A stretch of DNA of 64,000 bases, taken from the NCBI RefSeq assembly GCF_014640635.1, contig NZ_BMHI01000003.1, forward strand, positions 62,001 to 126,000, read 5' to 3'. A program made the position numbers and the translations under genes. Below are positions 1 to 64,000 of this stretch, piece by piece (the first letter of the stretch is position 1; every line of letters begins with the position of its first letter). The notes under the pieces were generated by a model. The model had not been told where the DNA came from, made no database searches, and worked only from the letters and a program-made list of their open reading frames with translations. This stretch comes from Flexivirga endophytica (lineage in GTDB: Bacteria; Actinomycetota; Actinomycetes; Actinomycetales; Dermatophilaceae).

Positions 1-7
1 AACCTGC

Positions 8-1483
8 TCAGTGCTGCTCCTCCACCGAGCGTGAGTCGGTGAGAGTCACCGCGCCGAGGGTGGCGATGCCGCCGACCACTGCGGCGAGCACCAGGTAGGT
101 GATCCGCTCGCCGTGGAAGAACGACGCCACCAGGCTGCTGCTCCACACGCCGGCCGGCAGGGTCGCGGTGACGAGCGCCGCGATCAGCGTTCCGACGATG
201 GCGGTGCCGACACTGGTGCCGACCTCTTGTGCGGTGTCGTTGAGCGCTGTGCCCATCGACGTGCGGTTCTCCGGCATCGCGTCGACGAGCGCGACCGCGC
301 AGATCGTCATCACGGTGCGCAGGCCGATCGTCATGACGACCATGGAGACCGCGATGGCGAGGTAGCCGTGCTCGACGCCCCACGCCATACCGACGAGGGA
401 GCCGCCGAGGCACGCGGCGCCGACCAGACAGGCGATGCGGTGACCGAAGCGCTTGCCGAGCCACTCCGACAGCGGAGTCGCCACCAGCATGGTCACGATC
501 ATCGGCAGGTTCGCCAGTCCGGCCCGGACCGGGCTCCAGCCGTAGGCGTACTGGAAGTGCAGGATGAGGCCGAACATCACCGATGCCATGGCGATCGCCG
601 TGGCGACCTGCGCGAGGAGGGCGCCGCGGACGGTGCCGTTCGACAGGACGGAGAGGTCCAGCATCGGTGCCTTGCTGGTCCGCTCGCGAAACACCCAAGC
701 GAGTCCGGCGAGGATCGCGCCGGCGATCGACGCGATGGTGGCCAGTGAGAGCCAGCCGTGCTGGACGCCGCTGGTCAGGGAGTAGCAGGCCAGGCCGATC
801 ATCGTGATGCTGAGGGCCGCGCCGGGCAGGTCGAGCTTGTCGTTGGTCAGGCCGTCACGGTCATCGGGAGCCACACCTCGCCATACACCGATGGCGGCGA
901 TCAGAGCGATCGGCGCGTTCACGACGAGCAGCCACTCCCAGCGGATGTGCGCCAGTGCGGTGCCGCCGAGCAGCGGGCCCAGGATGAAGCCGGACATGCC
1001 GACGACGATCATCACCGTCATCGCCCGCATCCGCAGGTCCTTGCCGTCGAAGAGCCGGAAGACCAGCGAGTTGGTGATCGGCGCCATGGCCGCGGCGGCG
1101 ACACCGAGCGCGGCGCGCAGGGCGATGAGTTGGCCGGTCGAGTCGACGAAGACGACCGCCAGACTGATCAGCCCGAAGAGGCCGAGTCCGATGAGCAGCA
1201 CGCGCCGGCGCCCGAAGCGGTCGGCGATCGAGCCGGCGGTCAGCAGCAGTCCGCCGAAGGTCAGCGAGTAGGCGCCGGTGACCCATTGCAGCGCGGTGGT
1301 GCCGCTGCCGAGGTCGCGACCGATGGTCGGCAGCGCGATCGACAGCAGCGTGTTGTCGACCATCTCGACGAAGAAGGCGAGGCACAGCGCTGCGAGCGGG
1401 ATCCATGCTGCGCGCAGCGACGAATAGGTCTTTCGCTGTGGTGGTTTCGGGGTGGTCGGTGGGGAGAGAGTGGTGTTCGTCAT
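8..1483 (-). CDS. MFS drug efflux transporter, DHA2 (14-TM) type
   Basis: Probable proton-driven multidrug exporter in the cytoplasmic membrane, 491 residues. The first membrane segment begins near residue 27 after a Pro/Thr-rich cytoplasmic tail. Helix 1 carries the DHA2-type stretch FFVEMVDNTLLSIALPTIG, and the loop after helix 2 has MFS motif A (GSIADRFGRRRV, residues ~84-95). About fourteen hydrophobic segments follow, the usual number and length for EmrB/QacA transporters. The substrate cannot be read from sequence. The gene ends 7 bases inside the window edge, so downstream neighbours are unseen. The 162 bases to the divergent trmO hold both promoters. A second DHA2 paralogue lies at 5.8-7.2 kb. 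Confidence 0.9.
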   Translation of the reverse strand: MTNTTLSPPTTPKPPQRKTYSSLRAAWIPLAALCLAFFVEMVDNTLLSIALPTIGRDLGSGTTALQWVTGAYSLTFGGLLLTAGSIADRFGRRRVLLIGLGLFGLISLAVVFVDSTGQLIALRAALGVAAAAMAPITNSLVFRLFDGKDLRMRAMTVMIVVGMSGFILGPLLGGTALAHIRWEWLLVVNAPIALIAAIGVWRGVAPDDRDGLTNDKLDLPGAALSITMIGLACYSLTSGVQHGWLSLATIASIAGAILAGLAWVFRERTSKAPMLDLSVLSNGTVRGALLAQVATAIAMASVMFGLILHFQYAYGWSPVRAGLANLPMIVTMLVATPLSEWLGKRFGHRIACLVGAACLGGSLVGMAWGVEHGYLAIAVSMVVMTIGLRTVMTICAVALVDAMPENRTSMGTALNDTAQEVGTSVGTAIVGTLIAALVTATLPAGVWSSSLVASFFHGERITYLVLAAVVGGIATLGAVTLTDSRSVEEQH

Positions 1484-1645
1484 GGCGGCCTCCTTGGCAG
1501 GCTCGAGGGATTCGGTCTGCTGAGGAAGCTATGGACGCTGACTTTCAGGGTGGTTTCGCCGTACCTTCACGGGTTTCACGGGCGGTTTCAGGTCACCTGA
1601 CATCCATCGACCGCTCGGTGCGCGAGCGGTGCCAGAATCCGTGCC

Positions 1646-2122
1646 ATGGATCTCGTCATGGAACCCGTAGCAGTTGTTCGCGAAGGCCGTGCCACACCCG
1701 ACGACGACTACTGGGGCGACTCGGTATGCCGGATCGAGCTGACCGCGGCATACGAGCCGGAGAGCCTGGCGGGGCTGGGTGACTTCTCACATCTCGAGGT
1801 CGTCTACGTCTTCGACCGTGTCGACCCGGAGTCGGTCGAGACCACCGCACGCCATCCGCGAAACCGGGACGACTGGCCGCTGGTGGGGATCTTCGGGCAA
1901 CGCGGCAAGCGTCGGCCGAATCGCCTCGGCGTGAGTCGATGTCGGCTGCTGCAGGTCGACGGGAGGTCGCTCGTGGTGGAGGGGCTGGACGCCGTGGACG
2001 GGACCCCGGTGCTGGACATCAAGCCGTGGATGGTGGAGTTCGGACCGCGGGGTGCGGTGCGGCAACCGGAGTGGTCGACCGAGCTGATGGCTGACTACTA
2101 CCGCCCCGAATCCGAGCGGTGA
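1646..2122 (+). CDS. trmO: tRNA (adenine(37)-N6)-methyltransferase TrmO (TsaA/YaeB family)
   Basis: SAM-dependent enzyme that, in characterised members, N6-methylates t6A37 of tRNA-Thr. The 158-residue product covers the compact TsaA beta-barrel. Family signatures are visible: the RHPRNRDDWPLVGIFGQRGKRRPN block (residues ~68-91, given here as separate hallmark pieces RHPRNR, VGIFGQR and RPN) and DGTPVLDIKPW near residue 117. Start at 1646 is the first ATG; an in-frame ATG at 1658 is possible. It is a lone gene, divergent from the MFS gene and convergent with the GPP34 gene with only 19 bases between stops. The family is clear; the exact tRNA substrate is inferred. Confidence 0.9.
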   Translation: MDLVMEPVAVVREGRATPDDDYWGDSVCRIELTAAYEPESLAGLGDFSHLEVVYVFDRVDPESVETTARHPRNRDDWPLVGIFGQRGKRRPNRLGVSRCRLLQVDGRSLVVEGLDAVDGTPVLDIKPWMVEFGPRGAVRQPEWSTELMADYYRPESER

Positions 2123-2141
2123 CACCGCTGGATGAGTCGGC

Positions 2142-2813
2142 TCAGGAGTTGATGGTCGCCGTCGTGGTTGCAGCAGTGACTGCCGCGGTCACCGCCGCCA
2201 TGGTCGCCGCCTGAGCCTCGCGGACAGCGCGCCCGGCTGCGCCGGAGGCCCAGTCACCGTCCGTCAGCTCCTTGGCCCGTTTGATCAGTTCCTTCTTGCT
2301 CATGCCGAACTGCTCGGGCGGAAAGATCGCCGGCACCGCGCCGCACGCCTGGACGAGTCCGAGCAGGGTCCCGGTGCGCGGATCGGGTCGAGCGGTCCCC
2401 ACCAACACGGCCGCGACGTCGTTCCACACGCGGGCGCGTACGTCCGGCCGACGCAGGGGGAAACGGTTGGGACGCAGGAATCTTCCGCGCTCGATCGCCA
2501 CGATGCCGGCCGCGGCCAGCCGATCGTAGAGTTCGTCGCCGAGGCCTTTGGCCACGCGGCCGAGCACGTCCTTGGGCTTCTTGCCGGCCTTCGACCGGAA
2601 CGTCTCCAGCGCGCGATCGAGCGTCGGATCGCCCTGCGGGGTGGCGCCGCCCGGCAGCGCAAGACGATCCCGCTCATCGACCGCGACACGTCCCTGCAGG
2701 GCGAGTTCGGCGAGTAGGCCGCCGGCGAGAGCAACCGGAACGGACTGGCCGCTGGCCAGCCACTTCCCGTCCTCGGTCGTGCACAACAACAGCAATTCCT
2801 CCGAGAGCAGCAT
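2142..2813 (-). CDS. GPP34 (GOLPH3-like) phosphoprotein family protein
   Basis: 223-residue protein of the GPP34 family, whose eukaryotic members (GOLPH3/Vps74) bind phosphatidylinositol-4-phosphate. Bacterial members are common in Actinobacteria and have no agreed role. Visible features are the N-terminal LLSEELLLLCTTEDGKW segment, the LAGGLLAELALQGRV helix, and a helical C-terminal half with NRFPLRRPDVRARVW. The end is a low-complexity Ala/Thr tail (TMAAVTAAVTAATTTATINS). No signal peptide or membrane segment. Start ATG 2813 sits 10 bases after the stop of the Ada zinc-domain gene at 2824, so it may be the last member of that operon. Confidence 0.85.
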   Translation of the reverse strand: MLLSEELLLLCTTEDGKWLASGQSVPVALAGGLLAELALQGRVAVDERDRLALPGGATPQGDPTLDRALETFRSKAGKKPKDVLGRVAKGLGDELYDRLAAAGIVAIERGRFLRPNRFPLRRPDVRARVWNDVAAVLVGTARPDPRTGTLLGLVQACGAVPAIFPPEQFGMSKKELIKRAKELTDGDWASGAAGRAVREAQAATMAAVTAAVTAATTTATINS

Positions 2814-2823
2814 GAGAGCGACG

Positions 2824-3117
2824 TTACGCCTTGCTCTTCCAGGCTCGGTACTTCTCGGGCAGGCACACCGCGCACGGCCGGTATCCCGCTGCTACCGCGG
2901 TGGATTCGTCGGCGAAGAAGACGCGCACCTTCACGTATCCCCCTCGTTCGAGCGCTCGCAGCGCCGACGGACAGTCGAGGCGACCGTAGAGGTGGTTTCG
3001 GCGGTTGCCGCCGAACGTGCCCGGCACAGCCGACTCGTATGGCGCGCGGTCGGCGCCGAGCAGTGTGAACGTCTTGGCGCCAGAAGGCGTTTCGCCAGCA
3101 GGCCCATCAGGCCGCAT
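2824..3117 (-). CDS. Stand-alone Ada-type metal-binding domain protein
   Basis: Small protein (97 residues from the chosen ATG) made of the N-terminal zinc/methyl-phosphotriester domain of Ada without its partner domains. Residues from about LLGADRAPYES resemble Ada-Zn sequences: a Cys in GRLDCPSALRALERGGYV, then VRVFFADESTAVAAGYRPCAVC with the conserved FxxEAxAxGYRPCxxC pattern. In Ada this zinc site uses four Cys; here I see three Cys (GRLDC, PC, VC), so the ligand set may differ. ATG 3117 overlaps the stop of the preceding oxygenase gene by 11 bases, suggesting translational coupling; a longer reading upstream has no coding character. It forms an operon with Ogt and a 2OG oxygenase, which fits sensing or binding of alkylated DNA, but that role is inferred. 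Confidence 0.7.
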   Translation of the reverse strand: MRPDGPAGETPSGAKTFTLLGADRAPYESAVPGTFGGNRRNHLYGRLDCPSALRALERGGYVKVRVFFADESTAVAAGYRPCAVCLPEKYRAWKSKA

Positions 3118-3817
3118 CGTGGAACACCAGTGCCAACGTGTGCCGCTCACCGGAGCGGATCGCGGAGACGCCATGTCGGACCGGTGCCGCGGACCAGCCA
3201 CGTTGCGACCGCACCGGCCGGTCACGGGTGGTGAAGACATATCCATGACCGTGCGGCAACAGCGTTGCGGTGCCACGAGATTGAGCACGGGGGCGTTGCT
3301 CCAACAACAGGAACTCACCACCGGTGTGGTCGACGCCGGGCTCGTTGAGGTTGATCACCACCTGCAGTGGGAAGACCAGATCGCCATACAGGTCGCGATG
3401 GAGGGCGTTCCAGTCCTTCTCGCCATACTTCAGCAGGATGGCGGTCGACTTGGTCTGGCCGGCCTCGTGGCACATCGCGAGCCACTCGTCGAGGGTGTCC
3501 GGCCAGATCGGGTCGCGCCCGAGTTTGGTCCACCAGTTCAGTGCGATCGGCAGCAGTCGCGGGTAGAGCGCCCGCTTCAGTTCGTCGATCGGCTCGGGGT
3601 ATGGCGCCCGCAAATAACGGTATTCGCCCTCACCGAACCGGTGCCTGCCCATGGTGATCGTGCTGCGGAAGAGCTCGTCGCGTGGGTAGAGCGCGCGGAT
3701 CCGCGCGGTCTCCCCCGCGTCGAGCAACTGCGGCAGCAGCGCTCCGCCGTACTCGTCGAGTTCCTCGGTGATCGCCGTCCAGTCGCCGGAGTCGACGCGG
3801 TCGCTCCACGTGCTCAT
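3107..3817 (-). CDS. 2OG-Fe(II) oxygenase family protein
   Basis: 236-residue putative 2-oxoglutarate/Fe(II)-dependent dioxygenase. An HRDLYGD segment (the HxD iron pair, residues ~145-151) is followed by FPLQVVINLNEPGVDHTGGEFLLLEQRPR and, about 75 residues later, by HGVSAIRSGERHTLALVFHD, which supplies the distal His and the Arg that holds 2-oxoglutarate. It differs from classic AlkB but belongs to the same double-stranded beta-helix superfamily. Start ATG 3817 shares one base with the stop of the upstream ogt gene (TGATG), a classic coupling junction. Context with Ogt and an Ada domain suggests nucleic-acid dealkylation; the substrate is not shown by the sequence. Confidence 0.8.
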   Translation of the reverse strand: MSTWSDRVDSGDWTAITEELDEYGGALLPQLLDAGETARIRALYPRDELFRSTITMGRHRFGEGEYRYLRAPYPEPIDELKRALYPRLLPIALNWWTKLGRDPIWPDTLDEWLAMCHEAGQTKSTAILLKYGEKDWNALHRDLYGDLVFPLQVVINLNEPGVDHTGGEFLLLEQRPRAQSRGTATLLPHGHGYVFTTRDRPVRSQRGWSAAPVRHGVSAIRSGERHTLALVFHDAA

Positions 3818-4934: not shown

Positions 4935-4973
4935 CGGGTAGTCGCCGTGGAGCGCCGAAACGTGAGGTCCGGC

Positions 4974-5198
4974 TCAGCCCTCACCGAAGTCGATGATCCG
5001 CCACGGTTGGGAGCTGTCGTGCCGGACGAGTTCGAAGGAGAAGATGTGGGCTTCGGGGTCCGGTGTGCCGTCGAAACTCTTCGTCGTCTCCGAAGTGTCG
5101 ACTGTGACGGCTCGCTGCCAGCCGCGATGTTGCAGGTGCCTGACACCGTGGATCTTCATGTCGTGCAGCGCCAACAACGTCCCCCAGTACCACCGCAT
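4974..5198 (-). CDS. Small conserved-looking protein of unknown function
   Basis: 74 residues from ATG 5198 (MRWYWGTLLALHDMKIHGVR...), ending in a PWRIIDFGEG-like C-terminus. No signal peptide or membrane span is seen. Codon use is like the neighbours, with G/C at most third positions, which supports a real gene. The frame stays open upstream to 5291, but that part runs through a perfect hairpin and the csp terminator, so the shorter form is preferred. The C-terminal pattern recalls the last strand of SnoaL/NTF2-like proteins; this is only a resemblance. It lies 39 bases upstream of the sigma factor in the same direction and could be the operon's first gene. Confidence 0.5.
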   Translation of the reverse strand: MRWYWGTLLALHDMKIHGVRHLQHRGWQRAVTVDTSETTKSFDGTPDPEAHIFSFELVRHDSSQPWRIIDFGEG

Positions 5199-5241
5199 CC
5201 CTGCAGTATGGCGAGCCCGGCAACGATGCGGAGGACTAACG

Positions 5242-5270
5242 CGCTGTATGGCGCTGAGCGCCATACAGCG
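5242..5270. repeat. Perfect 13-bp inverted repeat containing two GTATGGCG words
   Basis: Arms CGCTGTATGGCGC and GCGCCATACAGCG pair perfectly around a TGA loop. Each arm carries one copy of the window-wide GTATGNCG word, in opposite orientation. It lies between the csp terminator and the small gene at 4974-5198. It could act as a terminator stem (no T-run) or a protein site. Confidence 0.8.
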
Positions 5271-5279
5271 GCAAAAGCA

Positions 5280-5318
5280 AAGCGGGCGCACCCGGGAAGA
5301 TCCCGGATGCGCCCGCTT
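5280..5318 (-). terminator. Rho-independent terminator of the cold-shock gene
   Basis: Strong GC-rich hairpin (arms starting AAGCGGGCGC, 18 pairs with one mismatch, short loop). On the minus strand it is followed by TTGCTTTT, 20 bases after the csp stop codon. This is the clearest intrinsic terminator in the window. Confidence 0.85.
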
Positions 5319-5338
5319 CGATGAAAAAGTTCAGGCGA

Positions 5339-5542
5339 TCAGATCGCGCGAACGTTCTCGGCCTGCGGGCCCTTCTGACCCTGGGCCGAGTCGAACTCGA
5401 CCTTCTGGTTCTCCTCCAGCGACTTGTAGCCGCTGCCGCTGATGGCGGAGAAGTGCACGAAGACGTCGGGGCTGCCGTCCTCGGGAGCAATGAAGCCGAA
5501 GCCCTTTTCCGCGTTGAACCACTTGACGGTTCCTGTTGCCAT
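5339..5542 (-). CDS. cspA: Cold-shock protein (CspA family)
   Basis: 67-residue single OB-fold cold-shock domain that binds single-stranded RNA/DNA and acts as an RNA chaperone. RNP1 KGFGFI (residues ~16-21) and RNP2 VFVHF (~31-35) are intact, the N-terminus is the standard [15 protein letters not shown], and the length is typical. Start ATG 5542 follows a GAAGGGA ribosome site 9 bases upstream; the frame continues to 5602 but has no family similarity there. A strong terminator follows the gene. The roughly 250-base leader up to 5798 is gene-free and could carry cold-responsive RNA structure, as csp leaders often do. Confidence 0.95.
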
Positions 5543-5798
5543 GGTGGCGATTCCCTTCGGGTTTTCTGCCGGGCCGCACACGGTGCGCGAGCCCGGGGCC
5601 AAACGTCAACGTCGCGGGCGTCCGACAAGGATCGTCGGCACCTCCGCGTCGAGCGCTGCATGGATCCAGCGCGCTCAAGACGTGAAGGAACAACAACTGC
5701 TGACCACTGCCAAGCCTACCCTCTATGGCCGGTGGATCGCACCTACCGCCCCCAGGGGTTCGCGGAACGAGACGCGAGCCGCCCGATCGGCCCGTGGA
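5543..5798 (-). promoter_or_regulatory. Gene-free leader/promoter region of cspA
   Basis: About 255 bases between the upstream MFS stop (5799) and the cspA start hold no convincing gene. By analogy with other csp genes this should contain the promoter and a long 5' UTR. I see no certain -35/-10 pair. Confidence 0.4.
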
Positions 5799-7229: not shown

Positions 7230-7306
7230 CTGCACATCAAGGCTCCCGTGATCAGCATCATTCCCTGGCTGCGGTCCCATCCTCGTCGTTCGCTAGCGTC
7301 GAGGGA

Positions 7307-8191: not shown

Positions 8192-8217
8192 CGCGTCCGC
8201 CCGCGCCCGGCACATGG

Positions 8218-8249
8218 CGAAGGCCCCGGCGAGATTGCCGGGGCCTTCG
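8218..8249. terminator. Perfect 13-bp hairpin between the EamA gene and tRNA-Tyr
   Basis: Arms CGAAGGCCCCGGC and GCCGGGGCCTTCG with a six-base loop. It lies 26 bases after the EamA stop and just 3' of the oppositely oriented tRNA-Tyr, so it may end both transcripts. There is no strong T-run on either strand. Confidence 0.6.
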
Positions 8250-8254
8250 TGCAC

Positions 8255-8340: not shown

Positions 8341-8341
8341 G

Positions 8342-15821: not shown

Positions 15822-16619
15822 TCAGCCCTCGGCCATCCGATCGCGAATCTCCGCACCGATGCGGCCCATCCGAGCCATCACCGAGGACAGTCCGGGCGGG
15901 GAGTCATCGGTCGGCCAGTTGGCGACGGCTGCGTATCCCACGGCTCGGTCGCCGTCACGCACGAGTCCCACGTCGGCACGGATTCCGTCGTCGGTGCCGG
16001 TCTTGTTGATCAGGAAGGGATGCCCGACCTCATCGATCGTGTTGTGCGCCAGTGGGTCCTCGAGGAACGCCGACGCGACCATGGACAGGTCGGTGCTCAG
16101 CGACATCCACTCCTCGACGCGGGCGGACACGACGCCGTCATACAGCTGCCGGAGGTAGTGGACGAGTGCTGCGGCGCTGGCTCGCGAGAGAGTCTCCGGG
16201 GTGCCCGGGACCGACCGGTCCCGTGCTTCGCCGCTCACGTAGTCGAGCATCTCCATCGGCTTGGCGCCGATCGAATCCCCGTATGCCGCAACGGCATCCA
16301 GCCCAACCAGGTCCAGCAACACGTTGGTCGCGAGATTGTCGCTCACCGCACCGACCAGCCGGCACGCGTCCACGAGGGTCAGCTCGTCCTGGTCGAGTGT
16401 GTGCCACAGCCCGGAGTCGCGCACGAACCGTGCACCGGTCTTGCTGACCCGGAGATCGGCAGCCAGCTCGCCGGAGTCGATTCGGCGAGCGACGTCCCCG
16501 AGCACCAGGAGCTTGCCGACCGACGCGGTCTTCAGCACCAGGTCGGACGACTGCTCGATCCAGGGCGCCGCGGCGAGGTCGTCGAGCCGCACCGCCAGGA
16601 TGCTCCAACGGATACTCAT
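15822..16619 (-). CDS. Class A beta-lactamase-related serine hydrolase without signal peptide
   Basis: 265 residues with the active-site set of class A beta-lactamases: S-V-G-K in KTASVGKLL (residues ~33), SDN in VGAVSDNLATN (~94) and KTG in LINKTGTDDG (~207). There is no N-terminal signal peptide; the protein starts MSIRWSILAVRLDDLAAAPW, so it is predicted cytoplasmic. That is unusual for a penicillin-degrading enzyme. Its start overlaps the stop of the upstream pepN (ATGA), so it is the third gene of a PepN-PepN operon, which suggests an amidase or peptidase role. Resistance is not implied by sequence alone. Confidence 0.82.
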   Translation of the reverse strand: MSIRWSILAVRLDDLAAAPWIEQSSDLVLKTASVGKLLVLGDVARRIDSGELAADLRVSKTGARFVRDSGLWHTLDQDELTLVDACRLVGAVSDNLATNVLLDLVGLDAVAAYGDSIGAKPMEMLDYVSGEARDRSVPGTPETLSRASAAALVHYLRQLYDGVVSARVEEWMSLSTDLSMVASAFLEDPLAHNTIDEVGHPFLINKTGTDDGIRADVGLVRDGDRAVGYAAVANWPTDDSPPGLSSVMARMGRIGAEIRDRMAEG

Positions 16620-19108
16620 GCGACATCTCCGAACCGCCGCTGTGCCGCGAGCTGCTCTCGCAGTCTGCTGGTGCCATCGACGAACGAGCGTCGCACGCCT
16701 GCCGGGAGCTGGCCGGCCAGTGCACTCTCTGCCAGCTCGACGGTGCGTTCCTCCACGACGGTGGTGGGATAGCCGTCGGCGGCGAGCAGGTGCAGCACCA
16801 TGTCGCCGAGTTTGCTGGACAGCTGGGGTAATTCGGTGAAGAAGCGCTCGACATACGGCCGGGTGATCTCCTGGTCGGTCGCCCCGAAGAACGTCCGGGC
16901 CACCGCCCCGAGCTCGTGGCTGCTGGCGTTGTCGGACTCGGTCAGCCGGGACCACGCCCAGGTCTTCGCCTCCGCGGTCGGGATGCGGGTGCGGGCCGAC
17001 AACGACCGCAGCACACCGCTGACCGACGGGTCCTTGGCCCGCCACTCGTCGATCTCCGGGACACCCATCGCGCCCAGCGACGCCAGCCGGCTGATGACCG
17101 ACCAGCGGAACTGGTCGTCGCCGGCGAGGAAGGCCGGCAGCCCACGACCAGCGAGCCAGTCGCGCAGCAGGTCCGTGTCGGCAGAGGTGGCCGCGACGAG
17201 TCGTGCGGCGGTCAGCCGCCGCGAGTCGCTGGCCGAAGTCGCCTCGAAGACACGGGTCCCAGTGGCGGCCAGGCGGTCGAGCGCGGCCGGAGTCTTCGCG
17301 ATGGTCAGGAACCGTCCGGGAAGCAGTCCGGAGGTCATGGTGGCGACGGCTTCGAGCAGTGGATCGACGTCTTCGACGGGCCATGCAGCCTCGAAGGTGT
17401 CGATCACCAGCGACGGATCGACGGTGCCGAGCGCGAGACCGTTGAACAACGACGACCAGACCACTCCCCGCGCGGTCGCGTCGCGTAGATGCGGCAGCTC
17501 CTCGGGCAACTGCCGTTGGGTCGCCTCGTCGAGCGCGACGATCGCCCAGGTGCGGTCAGTTGCGTTGGGGAGCAACAGGTTCGGTGTCCGGCCGGGATTG
17601 AGATCGGGGACCTCGGTGCGGTCGGCATCGATGCGCACGTCGACGCGGGAGATCTGGACACCGTGCCGAAAGGCCGCTATGTCGGTCACGTGCGGCCGCT
17701 GTGCCGGGAACTGCGTCGGCGCGGTGCGGGTGATCGACACTGCGTCGCCGTCGACGGATGCCGTCATGACATCGGTGCCCGGGGTCAGCAGCCAGGCCCG
17801 CGCCCAGTCCTGGATGTCCCGGCCGCTCTCCTCGCTCATCGCTTGGAGGAAGTCATGCAGGCTGGCATTGCCGAACTCGTGTGCGTGCAGGTATTTCCGC
17901 ACGGCGGAGAGGAAGACCTCCTCGCCGAGGTATGCCGCAAGCTGCCGCAACGCGGAGGCACCCTTCGGGTACGTGATGCCGTCCAGGTTCTCCAGCGCTG
18001 CGTTCGCGTCGGGCGCGGGCGTCCCGGCGATCGGGTGGGTGGACGGCGCGCGGTCGGCGGCATACCCCCAGTTCTTGCGTATGGCGGAGAAGTCGATCCA
18101 CGCCTCGGAGAACTCGGTGGCCTCGGCCGTGCCCTGCTGGGCGAGGAACTCCGCGAAGGACTCGTTGAGCCACAAGTCGTCCCACCACTGCATGGTGACC
18201 AGGTCGCCGAACCACATGTGCGCCATCTCGTGGATGATCACCACCGCACGCAACAGGTGCTCGGCGCGGGACGCGTGCCCTTGGAAGACGAACTCGTCGC
18301 GCAGGGTCACGCAGCCGGGGTTCTCCATCGCACCCATGTTGAATTCGGGCACGAAGACCTGGTCGTACTTCCCCCACGGATAGCGGATGCCGTAGACGCG
18401 GTGGTAGTAGTCGAAGCCCTGCCGGGTGATGGTGAAGATCTCCTCGGCCTGGTCGGCGAGCTGGTCGGCCAGCGTCGCGCGTGCGTAGATGCCGAGTGGG
18501 ATCCCGTCGTGCTCGCTGGTGCGGACCGCGAAGGGTCCGGCGCACACCGTGAAGAAGTAGGTCGCGATCGGCCGCGTGGTCTCGAACGTGCGCCAGCCGT
18601 CGACGGTTTCGTTCGCCGCACCGTTCGCCGCCACCACCCACTCCTCCGGCGCCTTCACCCGCACCGTGTATGGCGCCTTCAGGTCCGGCTGCTCGAAGCA
18701 GGCGTAGATCTTGCCCGCGGTCGACGATGCCGGGCTGCCGTAGAGGTAGGCCTGCTCGTCCTGCGGGTCGACGGCTCGGTGCATGCCTTCGCCGTCGCGG
18801 ACGTAGCCCATGGTGGCGTCGACGACCAGCTCGTTGTCGGCGTCCAGGTGGTCCAGCCAGAGCCGGCCGCCCTTGACCTGTGACTCGTCGATCGCGTTGC
18901 CGTTCAACGTGATCGAGCCGACTTCACGGGGGTCGAACTCGACGAATGTCGACGCGCCGGGTGTGGAGCAAGTGAAACGGATGGTGACCGCCGACCCGAA
19001 GAGCTCAGCTCCCCGGGTAAAGTCCAGCGCCAGCTCGTAGGACGTGACGTCGACGAGCGATGCGCGCTCCTCGGCCTCGGTGCGCAGTAGGGACGACACA
19101 GTGCTCAA
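16616..19108 (-). CDS. pepN: Aminopeptidase N (M1 family), copy 1
   Basis: 830-residue cytoplasmic zinc aminopeptidase. The substrate-anchoring GAMEN is in NMGAMENPGC (residues ~265) and the zinc site HExxH...E is in VIIHEMAHMWFGDLVT (~300) with WLNESFAEF about 20 residues later. An ERAP1-like helical C-terminal domain fills residues ~520-830. It removes N-terminal residues from peptides in late protein turnover. It overlaps the beta-lactamase-like gene downstream and its tandem paralogue upstream by four bases each. No signal peptide. Confidence 0.93.
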   Translation of the reverse strand: MSTVSSLLRTEAEERASLVDVTSYELALDFTRGAELFGSAVTIRFTCSTPGASTFVEFDPREVGSITLNGNAIDESQVKGGRLWLDHLDADNELVVDATMGYVRDGEGMHRAVDPQDEQAYLYGSPASSTAGKIYACFEQPDLKAPYTVRVKAPEEWVVAANGAANETVDGWRTFETTRPIATYFFTVCAGPFAVRTSEHDGIPLGIYARATLADQLADQAEEIFTITRQGFDYYHRVYGIRYPWGKYDQVFVPEFNMGAMENPGCVTLRDEFVFQGHASRAEHLLRAVVIIHEMAHMWFGDLVTMQWWDDLWLNESFAEFLAQQGTAEATEFSEAWIDFSAIRKNWGYAADRAPSTHPIAGTPAPDANAALENLDGITYPKGASALRQLAAYLGEEVFLSAVRKYLHAHEFGNASLHDFLQAMSEESGRDIQDWARAWLLTPGTDVMTASVDGDAVSITRTAPTQFPAQRPHVTDIAAFRHGVQISRVDVRIDADRTEVPDLNPGRTPNLLLPNATDRTWAIVALDEATQRQLPEELPHLRDATARGVVWSSLFNGLALGTVDPSLVIDTFEAAWPVEDVDPLLEAVATMTSGLLPGRFLTIAKTPAALDRLAATGTRVFEATSASDSRRLTAARLVAATSADTDLLRDWLAGRGLPAFLAGDDQFRWSVISRLASLGAMGVPEIDEWRAKDPSVSGVLRSLSARTRIPTAEAKTWAWSRLTESDNASSHELGAVARTFFGATDQEITRPYVERFFTELPQLSSKLGDMVLHLLAADGYPTTVVEERTVELAESALAGQLPAGVRRSFVDGTSRLREQLAAQRRFGDVA

Positions 19109-21642
19109 CCTTCCGTGGTCGGGTGCTTCGAAGCTGCGGTGGAGTAGCGGTCCTGGGCGACCAGGGCACGGTCCAACCGGTCGAGGGAGTCGGCCAGTGC
19201 CCGGCGGACGCCGGCCGTGTTGTCCGAGGAGTCGATAGCCGTCCGGGCCGCGTCCGCGACCGCACGCTCGACGACGCGGTGTGGGAAGGCCATCAGCACG
19301 AACTTCTCGGCGGCCATGTCGCCGAACTTCTTCGGAACGATTGGTAATGCGGCGAAGAACTGATCGACGTAGGACCGCAGGAGCTCGGCGGCGGCGTTCT
19401 CGCCATACCCCGCGAAGAAGCCCTGCGCGATCGCGAGACCTTCGTAGTTGGACAGGTCCACGGTGCCGAAGAGCTGATCCCAGGCCCAGGTCTTCGCCTC
19501 CTCGGTCGGCAGCGCGGCCCGCGAGCGCAGCGTCGCCAGATGACCGCTGAGGCTCTCATCGGCCGCGGCGGCCCGGTCCACGTCGGCGCTCGCGATCTGG
19601 CCGAGCTCGGCCTGCCGCGCCACCACTGCCCAGCTGAAGTCCTGGTCACCCGCGGCGGCCGCGGGCCGATCGACGTCCGAAGCCCACTGGGACAACAGGT
19701 TCGCGTCGGTGCTGGTCGCTGCCACGAGCCGAGCCGCGGTCAGCGCTGACGGCGACGTCCCGTCCACGGATGCGAGCCGTCGTCGGCCGGCGTCCTGCAG
19801 CACGGCAGACGCGTCTGCCGAATCGGCATGCGGCACCAGGCGGTAGGGGTAGAGCGTCCGGACGCGCCCGGACAACGTGTCGCTCAACGACGGCACCGGC
19901 TCCTGGGGCCAGGCGGCACCGAACGCCTCGACGACGCGGATCGGATCGATGCGCCCGGTGTCCGCTCCGCTGAGCAGCGCCGACCAGATCGCCAGCCGAG
20001 TCAACGGATCCTCGCTCGCGGCCAGCTCCTCGACCACCGAGTCGAGTGACCGTTCGTCGAGCAGGCTCGTCGCCCAGGTCAGGTCGGAAACGTTGGGCAG
20101 CAACAGTTTCGGCCGCGGTGCCCCGGCCAGCTCAGTCAGCGTCGTGCGTGTCGTATCACTCTGCACGCTGACCCGCCGCTCTTCGTGGCCATCGCTGATC
20201 GCACCGATCTCGAGCACGTGCGGCCGTCCGCCCGCCCCGCCCTCCGGCGGGGTCACGACCAGCTCTGCACGCTCGATCACACCGTCCCGCTCGTGCACGT
20301 CCACGCTGATCTCGTCGACACCGGAGCTGCGCAGCCAAGCTTCGGTCCACTCGGTCAGCGACCGGCCGCTCGCAGCTTCGACCGCACCGAGGAAGTCGGA
20401 CATCGTTGCGTTGCCGAAACTGTTGTCGGTCAAGTGCTTTCGGACCCCGGCGATGAACGCGTCGTCGCCGACATACGCAGCTAGCTGACGCAGCGCGGAG
20501 GCACCCTTGGCGTAGGAGATGCCGTCGAAGTTGGTCAGCGCCGACTCGGCGTCCGGCGCCGATGCCCCCGCGATCGGATGTGTCGACGGGCTGCGGTCCA
20601 CGCCGTAGCCCCACGTCTTGCGGGAGATGCCGAAGTCGACCCACGCCTCGGTGTATTGCGTGGCCTCCGCGGTGGTCCGGTGCGCCATGTATTCGGCGAA
20701 CGACTCGTTGAGCCACAGGTCGTCCCACCACTGCATGGTGACCAGGTCGCCGAACCACATGTGTGCCATCTCGTGGGCGATCGTGTTGGCGCGCGTGAGC
20801 AGTTCGGTCCGAGTGTGGGCACCGCGGAAGACGTAGTCGTCGCGCAGCGTGACACAGCCGGGGTTCTCCATCGCGCCGGCGTTGAACTCCGGCACGAAGA
20901 ACTGGTCGTATTTGCCCCAGGGATAGCGGATCCCGAAGAGCCGGTGGTAGTAGTCGAAGGACTGTTTGGTGACCTCGAAGATGTCGTCACGCTGCTCGGC
21001 GAGCTGCTTCGCCAACGAAGCACGGACGTAGATGCCCAGCGGGATGCCGTCGTGTTCGTCGGTCTCGACGGCATACGGGCCGGCACAGATCGTCACGAAG
21101 TATGTCGACAGCGGTGGCGTCGTCGCCAGGGTCCATTCGCCGGGCGCAGTCCGCTCCGCCGCACCGTTGCCGGCGACGATCCAGTCATGTGGCGCGCGCA
21201 CTCGCACGTCATACGGCGCCTTGAGGTCCGGCTGGTCGAAGCAGGCGAAGATCGACGGCCCCGCGTCGAGGAACGACATGCCGTAGACGTAGTGGCGCCC
21301 ATCGGCGGGGTCGACCGCACGATGCAGACCCTCGCCGTCCTGCCGGTAACGCATCACGCTGACCACTCGAACGGTGTTGTGCGGGGCCAGCCCGGCCATC
21401 GTCACCCGGCGGTCGGCGACCGTCGCCGGGTCGATGTCCTCACCGTTCAGGGTGATGGAGATGACCGAGACGGCCTCCAGGTCCAGGAACGTCGACGCGC
21501 CGGGCTCGCGGCAGTCGAAGCCGATCGTCACCTCGGACCCGAACGTCTCCGCGCCCTGATCCAGGTCGAGTGCGACGTCGTAGGAGGTGAGGTCGATCAG
21601 ATCGGCACGTGCCTCTGCCTCGGTGCGCAGCAATGAACCCAT
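19105..21642 (-). CDS. pepN: Aminopeptidase N (M1 family), tandem copy 2
   Basis: 845-residue paralogue of the neighbouring gene, alike from residue 1 (both contain SLLRTEAE at the N-terminus). GAMEN is in NAGAMENPGC and the zinc site in IAHEMAHMWFGDLVT, followed by WLNESFAEYMAH. The two copies diverge strongly in the C-terminal half and in substrate-pocket neighbours (FAEF versus FAEY), so specificities may differ. ATG 21642 has AAAGG about 11 bases upstream. First gene of the three-gene operon; its leader contains repeat copy A (21695-21750). Confidence 0.93.
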   Translation of the reverse strand: MGSLLRTEAEARADLIDLTSYDVALDLDQGAETFGSEVTIGFDCREPGASTFLDLEAVSVISITLNGEDIDPATVADRRVTMAGLAPHNTVRVVSVMRYRQDGEGLHRAVDPADGRHYVYGMSFLDAGPSIFACFDQPDLKAPYDVRVRAPHDWIVAGNGAAERTAPGEWTLATTPPLSTYFVTICAGPYAVETDEHDGIPLGIYVRASLAKQLAEQRDDIFEVTKQSFDYYHRLFGIRYPWGKYDQFFVPEFNAGAMENPGCVTLRDDYVFRGAHTRTELLTRANTIAHEMAHMWFGDLVTMQWWDDLWLNESFAEYMAHRTTAEATQYTEAWVDFGISRKTWGYGVDRSPSTHPIAGASAPDAESALTNFDGISYAKGASALRQLAAYVGDDAFIAGVRKHLTDNSFGNATMSDFLGAVEAASGRSLTEWTEAWLRSSGVDEISVDVHERDGVIERAELVVTPPEGGAGGRPHVLEIGAISDGHEERRVSVQSDTTRTTLTELAGAPRPKLLLPNVSDLTWATSLLDERSLDSVVEELAASEDPLTRLAIWSALLSGADTGRIDPIRVVEAFGAAWPQEPVPSLSDTLSGRVRTLYPYRLVPHADSADASAVLQDAGRRRLASVDGTSPSALTAARLVAATSTDANLLSQWASDVDRPAAAAGDQDFSWAVVARQAELGQIASADVDRAAAADESLSGHLATLRSRAALPTEEAKTWAWDQLFGTVDLSNYEGLAIAQGFFAGYGENAAAELLRSYVDQFFAALPIVPKKFGDMAAEKFVLMAFPHRVVERAVADAARTAIDSSDNTAGVRRALADSLDRLDRALVAQDRYSTAASKHPTTEG

Positions 21643-21694: not shown

Positions 21695-21750
21695 CGGGGT
21701 CCCCGCGAAGTGTTCGGAGGAGCGGAGCGTGGGAGAAACTTTGTGGGGTG
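21695..21750 (+). repeat. Dispersed ~55-bp palindromic repeat, copy A
   Basis: Begins CGGGGTCCCCGCGAAGT and ends ACTTTGTGGGGTG, with the core CGGAGGAGCGGAGCG. The outer parts form an imperfect inverted repeat. Copies B (35275-35328) and C (28514-28568, reverse) match over the whole length. It sits between htpX and pepN. Confidence 0.85.
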
Positions 21751-28511: not shown

Positions 28512-29053
28512 GAACTCCCCCCGAAGTTCTCCTCCGCTTCGCTCCCCCGATACTTCGCGGGGACCCCGGATCCATGTCCAGGGCTCTCTGAAAGCCCGCT
28601 GTCGACGTGCGCCGGCGGCGGCACGGTCGGCATCCACTCGCCGAGCTTGTCCTTCTCGTGCAACAGGTTCCGGATGTCGCCGTCGGCGTATTCGAACTCC
28701 GGGCTCCAGAAGAGCGCGTCGAAGGGACACACATCGATGCAGATCCCGCAGTACATGCACAGGCTGAAGTCGATCGCGAACCGGTCGAGCATGTTGTGCT
28801 GCCGGGCGCGGCCGCCTTCGGTCTCCGGCGGGGTTGTCTCCTTGTGGGAGTCGATGTAGATGCACCAGTCGGGGCACTCGCGTGCGCAGAGCATGCAGGA
28901 GGTGCAATTCTCCTCCAGCAGTGCGATGACGCCACGGCTGCGCTGCGGTAGCTCGGGCTGCACGTGCGGGTACTGCTGGGTGTGGGCGTGCGTGACCATC
29001 GTGCGACCCGTGGTCGCCATACCCTTCGCGAGGCCTGTGAGGAATTTACTCAT
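28508..29053 (-). CDS. nuoI: Complex I-like 2x[4Fe-4S] subunit NuoI with a repeat-encoded C-terminus
   Basis: 181-residue peripheral iron-sulfur subunit. Two ferredoxin motifs are intact, [12 protein letters not shown] and [12 protein letters not shown] (residues ~51-62 and ~94-105), so it can carry electrons from a soluble donor toward NuoB. After [13 protein letters not shown] the C-terminal part ([19 protein letters not shown]) is translated from the dispersed repeat copy C rather than family sequence. This suggests a repeat inserted near the 3' end and extended or replaced the tail. The ATGA overlap with nuoH and GTGA with nuoJ remain intact. Confidence 0.9.
28514..28568 (-). repeat. Dispersed ~55-bp palindromic repeat, copy C (inside nuoI)
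   Basis: Reverse-strand copy beginning CGGGGTCCCCGCGAAGTATCG and ending AACTTCGGGGGAG (read as two separate pieces of the element). It forms the last ~19 codons of nuoI and stops just before the nuoJ GTG start. Confidence 0.85.
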
Positions 29054-35272: not shown

Positions 35273-35274
35273 TC

Positions 35275-35328
35275 CGGGGTCCTCGCGAAGTATCGGAGGA
35301 GCGGAGCGGGGGAGAACTTCGTGGGGTG
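35275..35328 (+). repeat. Dispersed ~55-bp palindromic repeat, copy B
   Basis: Begins CGGGGTCCTCGCGAAGTATC and ends ACTTCGTGGGGTG. It lies between the solute-binding protein and permease genes of the amino-acid importer and contributes the permease's ribosome-binding GAGGA on the minus strand. Confidence 0.85.
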
Positions 35329-56601: not shown

Positions 56602-56610
56602 GTCGGCCGC

Positions 56611-57927: not shown

Positions 57928-57933
57928 ACGGGC

Positions 57934-58695: not shown

Positions 58696-58748
58696 CTCCG
58701 CACAATAATGCGTAGCGGGCCCTCCGAACCGTGACTAGCTTCGAATGT

Positions 58749-59657: not shown

Positions 59658-59740
59658 GCGGGCCTGCTCGCGTTGTCACGTTCTGAGGGCCGCCGTTCGT
59701 CATACCTGAAGACAGAGCAGAACGCTCGGAAGGAGCAACG

Positions 59741-60181: not shown

Positions 60182-61041
60182 GAGCACCCGCCGACCACGC
60201 AGCCCAGGCCTCCGCGCGCGCAGCGGTCTGGGCTGCTGCACGCGGCCGGATGCTCGCGCACGCCTATCGGATGCTGGGCTCCTGGCAGGACGCCGAAGAC
60301 GTCGTCCAGGAGGCGTGGCTGCGTATGGCGACAGCCGACGACATACGCACACCCGACTCGTTCCTGACGACGACGGTGACCCGGCTGGCGATCGACCGGC
60401 TGCGGCAGCGAAAGCGCCGCCAGGAGGACTACATCGGCCCGTGGATCGCCGAGCCCGTCGCTTCCGACCTGTTGCCGGAGGACGCGGCGATCGACCGGGA
60501 TCTGTTGTCGCTGGCGGCAATTCAGCTGTTGGAACGACTCACCCCGCCGGAGCGGGCGACCTACGTGTTGCGTACCGGTTTCGCCTACTCGTTCCGCGAC
60601 ATCGGCGTCGTCATCGACCACACCGAGAGCGCGTGCCGGCAGCTGTATCGCCGGGCGACCGCTCGACTCGGCGCCGATGCGCGCTTCGACGCCGACCCCT
60701 CGACGCACGGCCGGCTGCTCGACGCGCTGCTGCACGCGGCGCGGGACGGCGCCCTGCGCGAGTTGGAGACATTGCTCGCCCATGAGGCCGTGTTGTGGGC
60801 CGACGGTGGCGGCAAGGTCAGCTCCGCTCTCAAGCCGATCCACGGGCGAGTCAAGATCGCCCGTTTCCTGGTCGGGATCACCCGCGAGCACGACGTGATT
60901 CGCGTCGCCGACATCAACGGCCTACCGACCCTGGAGATCCACCCCGACGGCCTCACCCGGTTCATCAGTCTCAGGGTGCGGGACGGGCTGATCGACGAGT
61001 TGCTCGTGCCCGGCAACCCCGACAAGCTCGGCGCGACCTGA
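60178..61041 (+). CDS. ECF41-type sigma factor with fused SnoaL-like C-terminal regulator domain
   Basis: 287 residues from GTG 60178. Region 2 (RGRMLAHAYRMLGSWQDAEDVVQEAWLRMA), region 4 (LTPPERATYVLRTGFAYSFRDIGVVIDHTESACRQLYRRA), then a C-terminal domain with the ECF41 hallmark WADGGGKVSSALKPIHG (DGGGK, residues ~202-206) and FISLRVRDGLIDELLVPGNPDKL. In ECF41 factors the C-terminal domain both aids and restrains activity, in place of an anti-sigma. The coupled CMD gene is the expected target. Confidence 0.92.
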   Translation: MRAPADHAAQASARAAVWAAARGRMLAHAYRMLGSWQDAEDVVQEAWLRMATADDIRTPDSFLTTTVTRLAIDRLRQRKRRQEDYIGPWIAEPVASDLLPEDAAIDRDLLSLAAIQLLERLTPPERATYVLRTGFAYSFRDIGVVIDHTESACRQLYRRATARLGADARFDADPSTHGRLLDALLHAARDGALRELETLLAHEAVLWADGGGKVSSALKPIHGRVKIARFLVGITREHDVIRVADINGLPTLEIHPDGLTRFISLRVRDGLIDELLVPGNPDKLGAT

Positions 61042-61100
61042 GTCGAGCTGCACTACTTCCCGACGCCGACCAAAACCTCCAGCCGACTCGAACTATAAGT

Positions 61101-61130
61101 TTGAGTTATGCATATCCACCCGGCTGTAAT
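61101..61130 (+). promoter_or_regulatory. Possible promoter of korAB
   Basis: TTGAGT (61101-61106), 18-base spacer, TGTAAT (61125-61130), in an AT-rich patch. It would give a leader of about 47 bases before the korA GTG. Confidence 0.4.
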
Positions 61131-61183
61131 CGGTGGAGGCGGGCCGCGTAGATTTGGTCGTAGATCCAATAGCGGGAGAACCA

Positions 61184-63055
61184 GTGAGCAACCTGAAACA
61201 GATCAACAGCGTCGTCGTGCGGTTCGCCGGAGACTCCGGGGACGGCATGCAGCTGACCGGCGATCGCTTCACCAGCGACTCCGCCGTGCTCGGCAACGAC
61301 CTGTCGACGCTGCCCAACTTCCCGGCGGAGATCCGCGCACCTCAGGGGACGCTCCCCGGCGTCTCCAGCTTCCAGGTGCACTTCGCCGACCACAGCGTCC
61401 TGACTCCCGGCGATGCGCCGGACGTGCTCGTCGCGATGAACCCGGCAGCCCTGAAGGCCAACCTCGGCGACCTGCCGCGTGGGTCGACGATCATCGTCAA
61501 CACCGACGAATTCACCAAGCGCAACCTGTCCAAGGTCGGCTACACGGACAACCCGTTGGACGACGACTCGCTCGATGCCTGGCAGGTCCACCCGGTGCCG
61601 CTGACGTCGATCACCGTCGAAGCGCTCGCCGACTTCGACCTGGGCCGCAAGGACAAGGAGCGCGCGAAGAACATGTTCGCGCTCGGCCTGTTGTCCTGGA
61701 TGTACACCCGCACCCTCGACGGCACCCGTGCGTTCCTGGCCACCAAGTTCGCCGACCAGCCGGACATCCTGGAGGCCAACCTGGCCGCGCTGCGCGCGGG
61801 TCATGCGTATGGCGAGACCACCGAGGCGTTCTCGGTGCAATACGCGGTGGCTCCGGCGCCGATGGAGGCCGGGACCTACCGCAACATCACCGGCAACGTC
61901 GCCCTGGCCTACGGGCTCACGACCGCGGCACACCGCGCGAAACTACCGCTCGTGCTCGGCAGCTATCCGATCACGCCGGCCTCCGACCTGCTGCACAACC
62001 TGTCCCGTCTCAAGCACTTCGGGGTCACGACGATCCAGGCCGAGGACGAGATCGCGGCGATCGGCACCGCGCTCGGTGCGTCGTTCGGCGGATCTATCGG
62101 GGTCACCACCACCAGCGGCCCGGGTCTCGCGTTGAAGTCCGAAACCATCGGTCTCGGAGTCTCGTTGGAGCTTCCGCTGGTCATCATCGACGTGCAGCGC
62201 GGTGGGCCGTCGACGGGTCTGCCGACCAAGACCGAGCAGGCCGACCTGCTGCAGGCGATGTTCGGCCGCAACGGTGAGTCCCCGGTCGCGGTGATCGCAG
62301 CCAACTCTCCCTCCGACTGTTTCGACGCGGCGGTCGAGGCGGTGCAGATCGCGACCACCTACCGCACACCGGTCATCCTGCTCAGTGACGGCTACCTGGC
62401 CAACGGCTCGCAACCCTGGCGATTGCCGACCGACATCGACCACCTCCCCTCGGTGAGTGTCGAGTTCGCGACCGAGCCGAACGCCACCGACGCCAAGGGC
62501 AATCCGACCTTCCACCCCTACGTCCGCGACGAGCAAACCCTCGCACGCCCGTGGGCCGTCCCCGGCACACCGGGTCTGGAGCACCGGGTCGGTGGCATCG
62601 AGAAGGCCGACGGCACCGGCGACATCAGCTACGACCCGGCCAACCACGACCACATGGTCCGCACCCGCCAGGCCAAGATCGACGGCATCACGGTCCCCGA
62701 CATCGAGGTCGACGACCCGAGTGATGACGCGAAACTCCTTGTCCTCGGCTGGGGTTCGACATACGGACCGATCGCGGCGGGCGCGCGCCTGGCCCGTGCG
62801 ACCGGCGCGAAGGTCGCGCGCGCGCACCTGCGCAACCTCGCACCACTGCCGGCCAACCTCGGCGATGTGCTGCGCCGCTACGAGCGGGTCGTCCTGCCGG
62901 AGATGAACCTCGGCCAGCTCGCCCTGCTGCTGCGCGGCAAATACCTCGTCGACATACAGAGCCACACGGCGGTGCGTGGGTTGCCCTTCACCGGAGCGGA
63001 GATCGCAGCGGTGATCGGCGAACACCTGGACGTCCTGGAAGGGAGCCCCTCATGA
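61184..63055 (+). CDS. korA: 2-oxoglutarate (2-oxoacid):ferredoxin oxidoreductase, fused gamma-alpha subunit KorA
   Basis: 623 residues from GTG 61184, with GGGAGA seven bases upstream; an ATG at 61133 would add 17 non-family residues. N-terminal gamma domain (VVRFAGDSGDGMQLTGD, residues ~9-25) is fused to the alpha domain (LPLVLGSYPITPASDLLHNL, then GGPSTGLPTKTEQADLLQAMFGRNGE in part). The C-terminal domain II is complete. With KorB it converts 2-oxoglutarate plus CoA to succinyl-CoA and reduces ferredoxin. ATGA overlap with korB. Confidence 0.93.
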   Translation: MSNLKQINSVVVRFAGDSGDGMQLTGDRFTSDSAVLGNDLSTLPNFPAEIRAPQGTLPGVSSFQVHFADHSVLTPGDAPDVLVAMNPAALKANLGDLPRGSTIIVNTDEFTKRNLSKVGYTDNPLDDDSLDAWQVHPVPLTSITVEALADFDLGRKDKERAKNMFALGLLSWMYTRTLDGTRAFLATKFADQPDILEANLAALRAGHAYGETTEAFSVQYAVAPAPMEAGTYRNITGNVALAYGLTTAAHRAKLPLVLGSYPITPASDLLHNLSRLKHFGVTTIQAEDEIAAIGTALGASFGGSIGVTTTSGPGLALKSETIGLGVSLELPLVIIDVQRGGPSTGLPTKTEQADLLQAMFGRNGESPVAVIAANSPSDCFDAAVEAVQIATTYRTPVILLSDGYLANGSQPWRLPTDIDHLPSVSVEFATEPNATDAKGNPTFHPYVRDEQTLARPWAVPGTPGLEHRVGGIEKADGTGDISYDPANHDHMVRTRQAKIDGITVPDIEVDDPSDDAKLLVLGWGSTYGPIAAGARLARATGAKVARAHLRNLAPLPANLGDVLRRYERVVLPEMNLGQLALLLRGKYLVDIQSHTAVRGLPFTGAEIAAVIGEHLDVLEGSPS

Positions 63056-64000
63056 CCTCCTCGATCGATCTCGGTATGCCCGGCGCCAGCGGCGTCGCGG
63101 GCGTTCCGCTGCTGGCCGACGGCGAGAAGCAGACCAAGCGCGACTTCACTTCCGATCAGGAGGTGCGCTGGTGCCCCGGTTGCGGCGACTACATCATCCT
63201 CAACGCGGTGCAGAGCTTCCTGCCGGAGCTCGGACTGCGCAGGGAGAACATCGTTTTCATCTCCGGGATCGGCTGCTCGAGCCGCTTCCCCTACTACCTC
63301 GACACCTACGGCATGCACTCGATCCACGGGCGCGCGCCGGCGATCGCGACCGGGCTGGCCACCAGCCGGCCGGACCTGTCGGTGTGGGTCGTCACCGGCG
63401 ACGGCGACGCGCTGTCGATCGGCGGCAACCACCTGATCCACGCGCTGCGCCGCAACGTCAACCTCAAGATCCTGCTCTTCAACAACAAGATCTATGGCCT
63501 GACCAAGGGGCAGTACTCCCCCACCTCGGACATCGGCGCGATCACCAAGTCGACCCCGCTCGGCTCGGTCGACCAGCCGTTCAACCCGGTCTCGCTCGCG
63601 CTCGGCGCGGAGGCGACTTTCGTTGCGCGCACGATGGATTCGGACCGCAAGCACCTCACCGACGTGCTGCGCGCGGCCGCTCAGCACCGCGGGACCGCAC
63701 TGGTGGAGATCTACCAGAACTGCCCGATCTTCAACGACGGCGCGTTCGACGTCCTCAAGGACGCCGACGAAGGAGAGGGCCGCATCCTGCGACTGGGCGA
63801 CGGCGAGCCGGTGCGTTCCGGAGAGGGTGAGCAGGCGCGGGTCGTCATACGCAATGCGGACGGCAACCTCGAGCTGGCGCCGGAAGCGACCGCCGATCCC
63901 GCACGGGTGCTGCGACACGACACCTCGGCCGACGATCCGTCGACGGCGTTCGCACTCTCACGCCTGGACGGTGCTGCCATGACGAGCGTGCCGATGGGCA
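63052..64000 (+). CDS. korB: 2-oxoglutarate:ferredoxin oxidoreductase beta subunit KorB (3' end outside window)
   Basis: First ~316 residues of the TPP/[4Fe-4S] subunit. Cluster Cys are in VRWCPGCGDY and GIGCSSRFPYY, the TPP/Mg motif is VVTGDGDALSIGGNHLIHALRRN (GDGDA, ~residue 120), and LFNNKIYGLTKGQYSPTS completes it. YQNCPIFN supplies the further Cys. The reading frame is still open at the window end, so it is partial. Together with korA it is the likely ferredoxin source for the nuo operon at 22.7-31.5 kb. Confidence 0.93.
   Translation, partial: MTSSIDLGMPGASGVAGVPLLADGEKQTKRDFTSDQEVRWCPGCGDYIILNAVQSFLPELGLRRENIVFISGIGCSSRFPYYLDTYGMHSIHGRAPAIATGLATSRPDLSVWVVTGDGDALSIGGNHLIHALRRNVNLKILLFNNKIYGLTKGQYSPTSDIGAITKSTPLGSVDQPFNPVSLALGAEATFVARTMDSDRKHLTDVLRAAAQHRGTALVEIYQNCPIFNDGAFDVLKDADEGEGRILRLGDGEPVRSGEGEQARVVIRNADGNLELAPEATADPARVLRHDTSADDPSTAFALSRLDGAAMTSVPMG

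Follow-up and report, generated by a model that had tools for sequence, protein, structure and literature searches.

Highly iterated words are known from few groups, and the reason for the existence of HIP1 is unsettled. The cyanobacterial HIP1 (GCGATCGC) is highly iterated, is replaced by variants in some genomes and is coupled to methyltransferases (PMC4390886). DNA uptake words are reported to form dialects that set genera of one family apart by single bases (PMC3630211) and to show a graded excess of mismatched forms (PMC1939737). The actinobacterium Micrococcus luteus is described as transformable, with ComEA/ComEC and Flp/Tad pili (PMC6370729, PMC4322843). A search of open-access papers found no uptake sequence for Actinobacteria and no earlier description of the strings GTATGNCG and CGNCATAC.

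The window, a 64-kb stretch of the draft genome of a Flexivirga, a soil actinobacterium (4,720,532 bases in 13 contigs; Dermatophilaceae, Actinomycetota), contains 128 copies of the octamer GTATGNCG, 55 on the plus strand and 73 on the minus strand, located by exact pattern scan:

1724 to 61814, plus strand: GTATGNCG, 55 copies of 8 bases each, with first bases at 1724, 3037, 3599, 4003, 4649, 5206, 5246, 5940, 8186, 9254, 12351, 13936, 15149, 15672, 16281, 17930, 18079, 18668, 21100, 22500, 23053, 24215, 24825, 26327, 27131, 28500, 32934, 34700, 35388, 36485, 36686, 37199, 39709, 40111, 41091, 41193, 43023, 44606, 45917, 47680, 49099, 49905, 49924, 50151, 51262, 52209, 53365, 54045, 54983, 55024, 56688, 58341, 58747, 60323 and 61807.
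383 to 63850, minus strand: GTATGNCG, appearing as CGNCATAC on the plus strand, 73 copies of 8 bases each, with first plus-strand bases at 383, 879, 1746, 3382, 3421, 3867, 4460, 4848, 4867, 5259, 6216, 7745, 7770, 7818, 8490, 9180, 9516, 10250, 11471, 13164, 13987, 16136, 16849, 18058, 19401, 20469, 21069, 21207, 23136, 23922, 25852, 27921, 29015, 30378, 30620, 31330, 32149, 32189, 33711, 34573, 34685, 35193, 36592, 37708, 38616, 38947, 39257, 40545, 40989, 42041, 42905, 43764, 43941, 44094, 44437, 47277, 47703, 47796, 49125, 49260, 50068, 50565, 52369, 53104, 53834, 57244, 57922, 59698, 60145, 60339, 62757, 62950 and 63843.

Chance predicts far fewer sites: Markov models of order 1, 2 and 3 gave means of 5.3, 6.6 and 19.6 and maxima of 11, 12 and 27 in 60 simulations of the window. 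An earlier note on this DNA had counted about 138 GTATG/CATAC sites by hand, and the exact scan finds 138 (61 plus, 77 minus); its figure of about 134 GTATGNC sites (59 plus, 75 minus) is reproduced identically, and 128 of the 134 read GTATGNCG, as it had said of most. Its view that N can be any base is borne out (A 36, C 39, G 40, T 23; n = 138), and the four exceptions that it listed are real, at slightly shifted positions (12416 and 22638 on the minus strand, 25548 and 37994 on the plus strand). CTATG, which it put at under ten, occurs 14 times.

The whole genome holds 8,019 copies of GTATGNCG (4,048 and 3,971 on the two strands; 1.70 per kb), compared with 1,249 of the backwards control GCNGTATG. 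Because this control contains GTATG, it is inflated in word-rich genomes, so that the whole-genome ratio is a poor measure and the true excess is larger than the ratio. The comparison with a Markov model that the earlier note had called for places the word far above expectation, with 851 copies in a 464-kb sample of the same genome against 48.6 expected (order 2). Under a codon-shuffle null, GTATGNCG has the top score among all octamers with one free position.

Within the genes of the 464-kb sample, which were called with a simple purpose-made gene caller, we found 699 copies where synonymous-codon shuffling gives 59.7, an 11.7-fold excess in which every base at N takes part (observed/expected A 171/14.9, C 223/18.7, G 197/14.5, T 108/11.6). 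Intergenic density (1.97 per kb; 153 in 77.7 kb) is close to genic density (1.81 per kb; 698 in 386.3 kb), and genic copies fall in each of the six frames (30/81/254 sense, 130/14/189 antisense). A bias in codons, dipeptides or gene expression could be invoked as the maker of the excess on the ground that the commonest frame places a tyrosine TAT codon in G-TAT-GNC-G (254 of 698 genic sites). The use of six frames, the equal intergenic density and the synonymous shuffle speak against it, the last two refuting codon and dipeptide bias, and the probability of this explanation is negligible.

Tyrosine codons in aligned genes of six genomes show a matching pattern: after G and before GNCG, TAT occurs 113 times and TAC 22 times, between G and G lacking NCG the counts are 2 and 34, and elsewhere they are 142 and 901. 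Tri- and tetrapeptides compatible with the word, taken relative to amino-acid frequencies, are commoner in Flexivirga and genome G007 than in word-poor relatives in six of six frames (1.33/1.08, 1.32/1.06, 1.61/0.68, 2.15/0.70, 1.49/0.98 and 0.83/0.69, where two word-poor counts are small, at 11 and 7, and the last frame lies below 1 in both groups). Five control peptide patterns gave smaller differences between the same groups (0.90/0.85, 0.83/0.80, 1.16/1.01, 1.01/1.04 and 1.12/1.00). The word appears to be favoured so strongly that protein sequences are shifted. That it is not a coding signal, as had been claimed earlier, agrees with its use of six frames and intergenic DNA and with the enrichment of compatible peptides.

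Where a specified position of the word falls on a third codon base, the word's base can be compared with its synonyms, the rest of the word being present. The resulting synonymous odds favour the word in all 13 position/frame/orientation cells with n of at least 15 (9.0 to 496), compared with a median of 1.05, a 95th percentile of 3.6 and a maximum of 7.1 among 166 control cells of shuffled words; all seven specified positions of GTATGNCG favour the word. The 21 one-mismatch words, pooled, are depleted in the genome (770 against 1068.5 expected under codon shuffling, or 0.72), while the figure in word-poor relatives is 1.09. Sixteen of the 21 fall below expectation; GTACGNCG is depleted (97 against 166.5) and GCATGNCG mildly so (95 against 126.5). 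With all positions favoured and mismatched words depleted, recognition is near all-or-none, with no single precursor converted.

These results bear on a Vsr-like process, raised in the earlier note, in which sequence-specific one-step mutation or repair would turn one ancestral word, GTACGNCG or GCATGNCG, into GTATGNCG. Such a process would fit the depletion of GTACGNCG and the finding that orthologs one step apart differ most often by T-to-C at position 4 (40 of 121), but it is very improbable, since the word is favoured in every position and frame examined and 16 one-mismatch words, instead of one, lie under expectation. Simple one-step conversion is thereby refuted. Conservation of GTATGNCG among orthologs (410 of 899 ordered pairs, 46%, against 32% for pooled shuffled words) is unremarkable, as at least 10 control words exceed it in raw conservation; codon-matched conservation is clearer at word positions 2, 3, 4 and 7 (TAT, for example, is kept in 63% against 31%), with positions 1, 5 and 8 showing it weakly. 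Equilibrium odds are roughly 10- to 60-fold per position, with a scaled bias near 3.

Over 21 stretches of the draft genome, whose origin and terminus are unmapped, the word lacks strand skew (435 against 416; chi2 12.7, 21 df), so that the earlier idea of a segregation signal is not supported. In three contiguous stretches the distances between copies are close to random (coefficient of variation 1.23, 0.80 and 1.06), and copies in the window are spread a little more evenly than chance would give (variance/mean 0.47 per 4 kb). Intergenic copies avoid A directly 5' of the word and T at the free position. In the window region, genes that lack an ortholog in the compared relatives carry 42 words in 18.3 kb (2.29 per kb), and those with an ortholog 86 in 50.6 kb (1.70 per kb). 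Contig C10 (locus L291 of this genome, G000; 19,014 bases) contains 3 words, against about 32 predicted from the genome rate, and none in its first 12 kb; it carries restriction-modification genes, and its products include a methylase-associated MTaX1 protein, a C5 DNA methylase and DUF2726 proteins. A low-GC stretch at 92-98 kb of contig C1 has 1 word in 6 kb.

Several other features of this genome deserve mention. Relative to an order-2 Markov model, GGTACC (50/285), GTACCG/CGGTAC (77/362) and CGGTTC/GAACCG (263/686) are depleted in the 464-kb sample, which could be restriction avoidance. A dispersed repeat of about 54 bp with ends CCCCCCGAAGT and ACTTCGCGGGG lies at 28517-28570, 35273-35326 and 21695-21748 of the window; its core has 20 matches in the stretches of this genome that were searched, and more copies occur in other Flexivirga genomes. 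Two overlapping, similar long genes form a tandem pair on the minus strand of the window (16616-19108 and 19105-21642) and presumably encode M1 aminopeptidases of the PepN-like type.

With a cut-off of 0.2 words per kb, 21 of 36 Dermatophilaceae genomes are carriers, compared with none of the 22 taken from the order's other families; when 197 genomes spanning the phylum were scanned, none exceeded the cut-off apart from the three that belong to the family. Even sister genomes differ (G008 1.50 per kb, G014 0.05). On a tree of 37 genomes built from four linked proteins of the comEC neighbourhood (support reaches at least 0.9 at 26 of 34 nodes; root uncertain, with the outgroup G036 placed inside the family), carriers and non-carriers alternate with at least nine changes, a number as low as which arose in 16 of 500 shuffles.

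Carriers also differ in the form of the word. Among 20 sampled, ten carry C at the free position in 80-100% of copies (GTATGCCG), four have an intermediate share (38-64%) and six, five Flexivirga and G007, have a relaxed sixth base (C 29-36%). Eight C-type genomes together hold 78 copies of GTATGCCG against 4.5 expected, while the other three N words together number 4 against 6.5. The density of GTATGCCG is alike in relaxed (0.36-0.59 per kb, six genomes) and C-fixed genomes (0.30-0.92, ten genomes), and a relaxed N brings about threefold more words. Relaxing thus raises the number of words and does not merely redistribute a constant total, which supports independent favour at each site and argues against selection for a set spacing.

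Three family members poor in GTATGNCG (0.02-0.07 per kb) use GGATGCCG in its place, with observed/expected counts under codon shuffling of 26/3.5 in G030, 26/6.1 in G020 and 19/5.1 in G005. Their whole genomes contain 5,222, 5,418 and 3,021 copies of GGATGNCG, respectively, or 1.31, 1.08 and 0.86 per kb, compared with 0.39-0.66 in the other 33 family members; G055, outside the family, has 0.78. Humibacillus loci show the same word as these three genomes (26/4.6 and 18/3.2). Provisional dialects are GTATGCGG in G024 (9/0.7, from 40 kb) and GAATGCCG in G016 (10/0.5, from 20 kb). The top word of G027 was discarded as a dialect, being a 24-bp tandem array (L040, about 5013-5643, inside a predicted gene region). 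We also rejected GTACGNCG as a phylum-wide dialect: its pooled Streptomyces excess is a CGTACG effect, with odds of about 1 at the last CG. Pooled Streptomyces loci L064-L128 show CGTACG words about twofold over codon shuffling (GNCGTACG 1142 against 590), unlike GTATGNCG. Only one Nocardioidaceae locus, 20 kb of a MAG (L109), treats GTACGNCG as a complete word, with 43 copies against 9.6 and all seven positions favoured (odds 2-23), and this is possibly another dialect, outside Dermatophilaceae.

We compared these distributions with those of candidate reader genes. RecC (PF04257) occurs in 8 of 21 carriers and in 7 of 15 word-poor family genomes; two of the 13 carriers that lack it are incomplete assemblies. 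This bears on the possibility that the word is bound, under weak selection per site, by an abundant protein of chromosome organisation, recombination or repair (Chi-like or nucleoid-associated). Such a protein would suit the whole-word preference at all tested positions, the strict specificity and the genome-wide presence in genes and spacers, but the lack of orientation skew in the 21 stretches and the near-random spacing weigh against it, and its RecBCD/Chi version is rejected because of the RecC distribution. We consider a binding protein of this kind unlikely.

The main rival to an uptake signal is HIP1-type coupling, in which a DNA methyltransferase or modification enzyme would mark the word and mark-tied repair or selection would keep and create it. 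The near all-or-none specificity suits an enzyme, and the patchy gain and loss suits modification systems. PF01555 was found in 8 of 14 carriers and PF00145 in 9 of 14 (searches of 35 genomes, among them 23 of the family's 36); for PF02384 the figure is 14 of 21. None of the three occurs in every carrier examined, and G011, a carrier whose assembly is 98% complete, has no match to any of them. The earlier suggestion of a methylase recognition site is weakened by this absence of a shared family. The word is moreover non-palindromic, and its density looks uncapped, given the gain of words when N is relaxed. On balance, HIP1-type coupling is doubtful, though it keeps a real chance of being right.

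Competence genes are widespread among carriers: ComEC occurs in 20 of 21, the exception being a 58%-complete assembly, the pilus-motor family PF00482 in 21 of 21, and each of the 37 loci read gave a ComEA match. All 15 word-poor members of the family have ComEC too, and the presence of ComEC or PF00482 is uninformative as a discriminator. The word-poor G010 has no PF00482 match, and in the word-poor G018 the ComEA match is short and one PF00482 match contains a stop; these are the only word-poor genomes to show possible competence lesions. The reader is not pinpointed by the distribution of RecC, the three methyltransferase families, ComEC or PF00482.

GTATGNCG is favoured as a whole, against every tested base change, on both strands, in genes and spacers, and in dialect-like forms between genera. 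Whole-word favour and dialects are expected where a strictly sequence-specific reader makes site-bearing alleles win, an effect that uptake during transformation has on established principles. Our tentative preference, for which we would claim somewhat less than an even chance, is that the word serves natural transformation as a strict signal of self DNA and has spread through biased uptake. The reader would belong to natural transformation; free DNA bearing the word would be preferentially taken up or recombined, word-bearing alleles would spread by molecular drive, each site independently, and the word would thereby come to mark self DNA. An altered reader would give a new dialect, and loss of the reader or of competence would let the words decay.

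The synonymous odds in 13 of 13 cells, the similar intergenic and genic densities and the peptide enrichment in six frames are consistent with this uptake signal, as are the missing strand skew, the near-random spacing, the dialects, a GTATGCCG density such as per-site drive predicts, the word-poor C10, ComEC and PF00482 in nearly all or all carriers, and the transformability of the actinobacterium Micrococcus luteus. Against it stand ComEC in all word-poor family genomes, with competence genes that do not set carriers apart from non-carriers; genes lacking an ortholog that are as word-rich as those with one; and the depletion of one-mismatch words, whereas uptake words reportedly show a graded excess. 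It may be, and we put this forward cautiously, that GTATGNCG represents the first sequence-specific code for self-DNA uptake in Actinomycetota: an octamer that forms dialects, is read all-or-none by a putative receptor, spreads by a molecular drive strong enough to bend the amino-acid sequence of the whole proteome, and has been repeatedly lost within one family. Should it prove to be an uptake signal, it would mean self-recognition in actinobacterial transformation and a practical handle for the genetics of these organisms. The word also appears to be an extra, non-coding force on protein sequence, and studies of codon and protein evolution should allow for it.

The earlier view that the word behaves like HIP1 or DNA-uptake words is supported by these comparisons. 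Chi of RecBCD is likewise a non-palindromic word of octamer length, and the Haemophilus Chi has a free base; GTATGNCG differs in having 13 of 21 carriers devoid of RecC, and it shows no strand skew over the 21 stretches. Vsr-type very short patch repair draws its gain from one mismatched precursor, a pattern that GTATGNCG does not follow. Like DUS (Neisseriaceae) and USS (Pasteurellaceae), GTATGNCG occurs in thousands of copies on both strands and has single-base dialects among genera of a family, and its carriers have competence genes; it differs in that its mismatched forms are depleted, where those of uptake words are reported to be in graded excess (PMC1939737), and in that its host is a Gram-positive-type actinobacterium. 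From HIP1 it differs in being no palindrome (it is not its own reverse complement), in having a free base in Flexivirga, and in its actinomycetotal carriers, which share none of the three methyltransferase families. It resembles HIP1 and alternate HIPs (PMC4390886) in being a short word with thousands of copies, on the order of one per kb, that is missing or replaced in relatives: we find a large genome-wide excess of one word (8,019 copies, 11.7-fold) and its replacement by another word in some relatives. GTATGNCG thus adds another highly iterated word, from a different phylum, whose closely related carriers, non-carriers and dialects lie side by side, which brings its reader within reach of gene comparisons and of simple assays for uptake or methylation.
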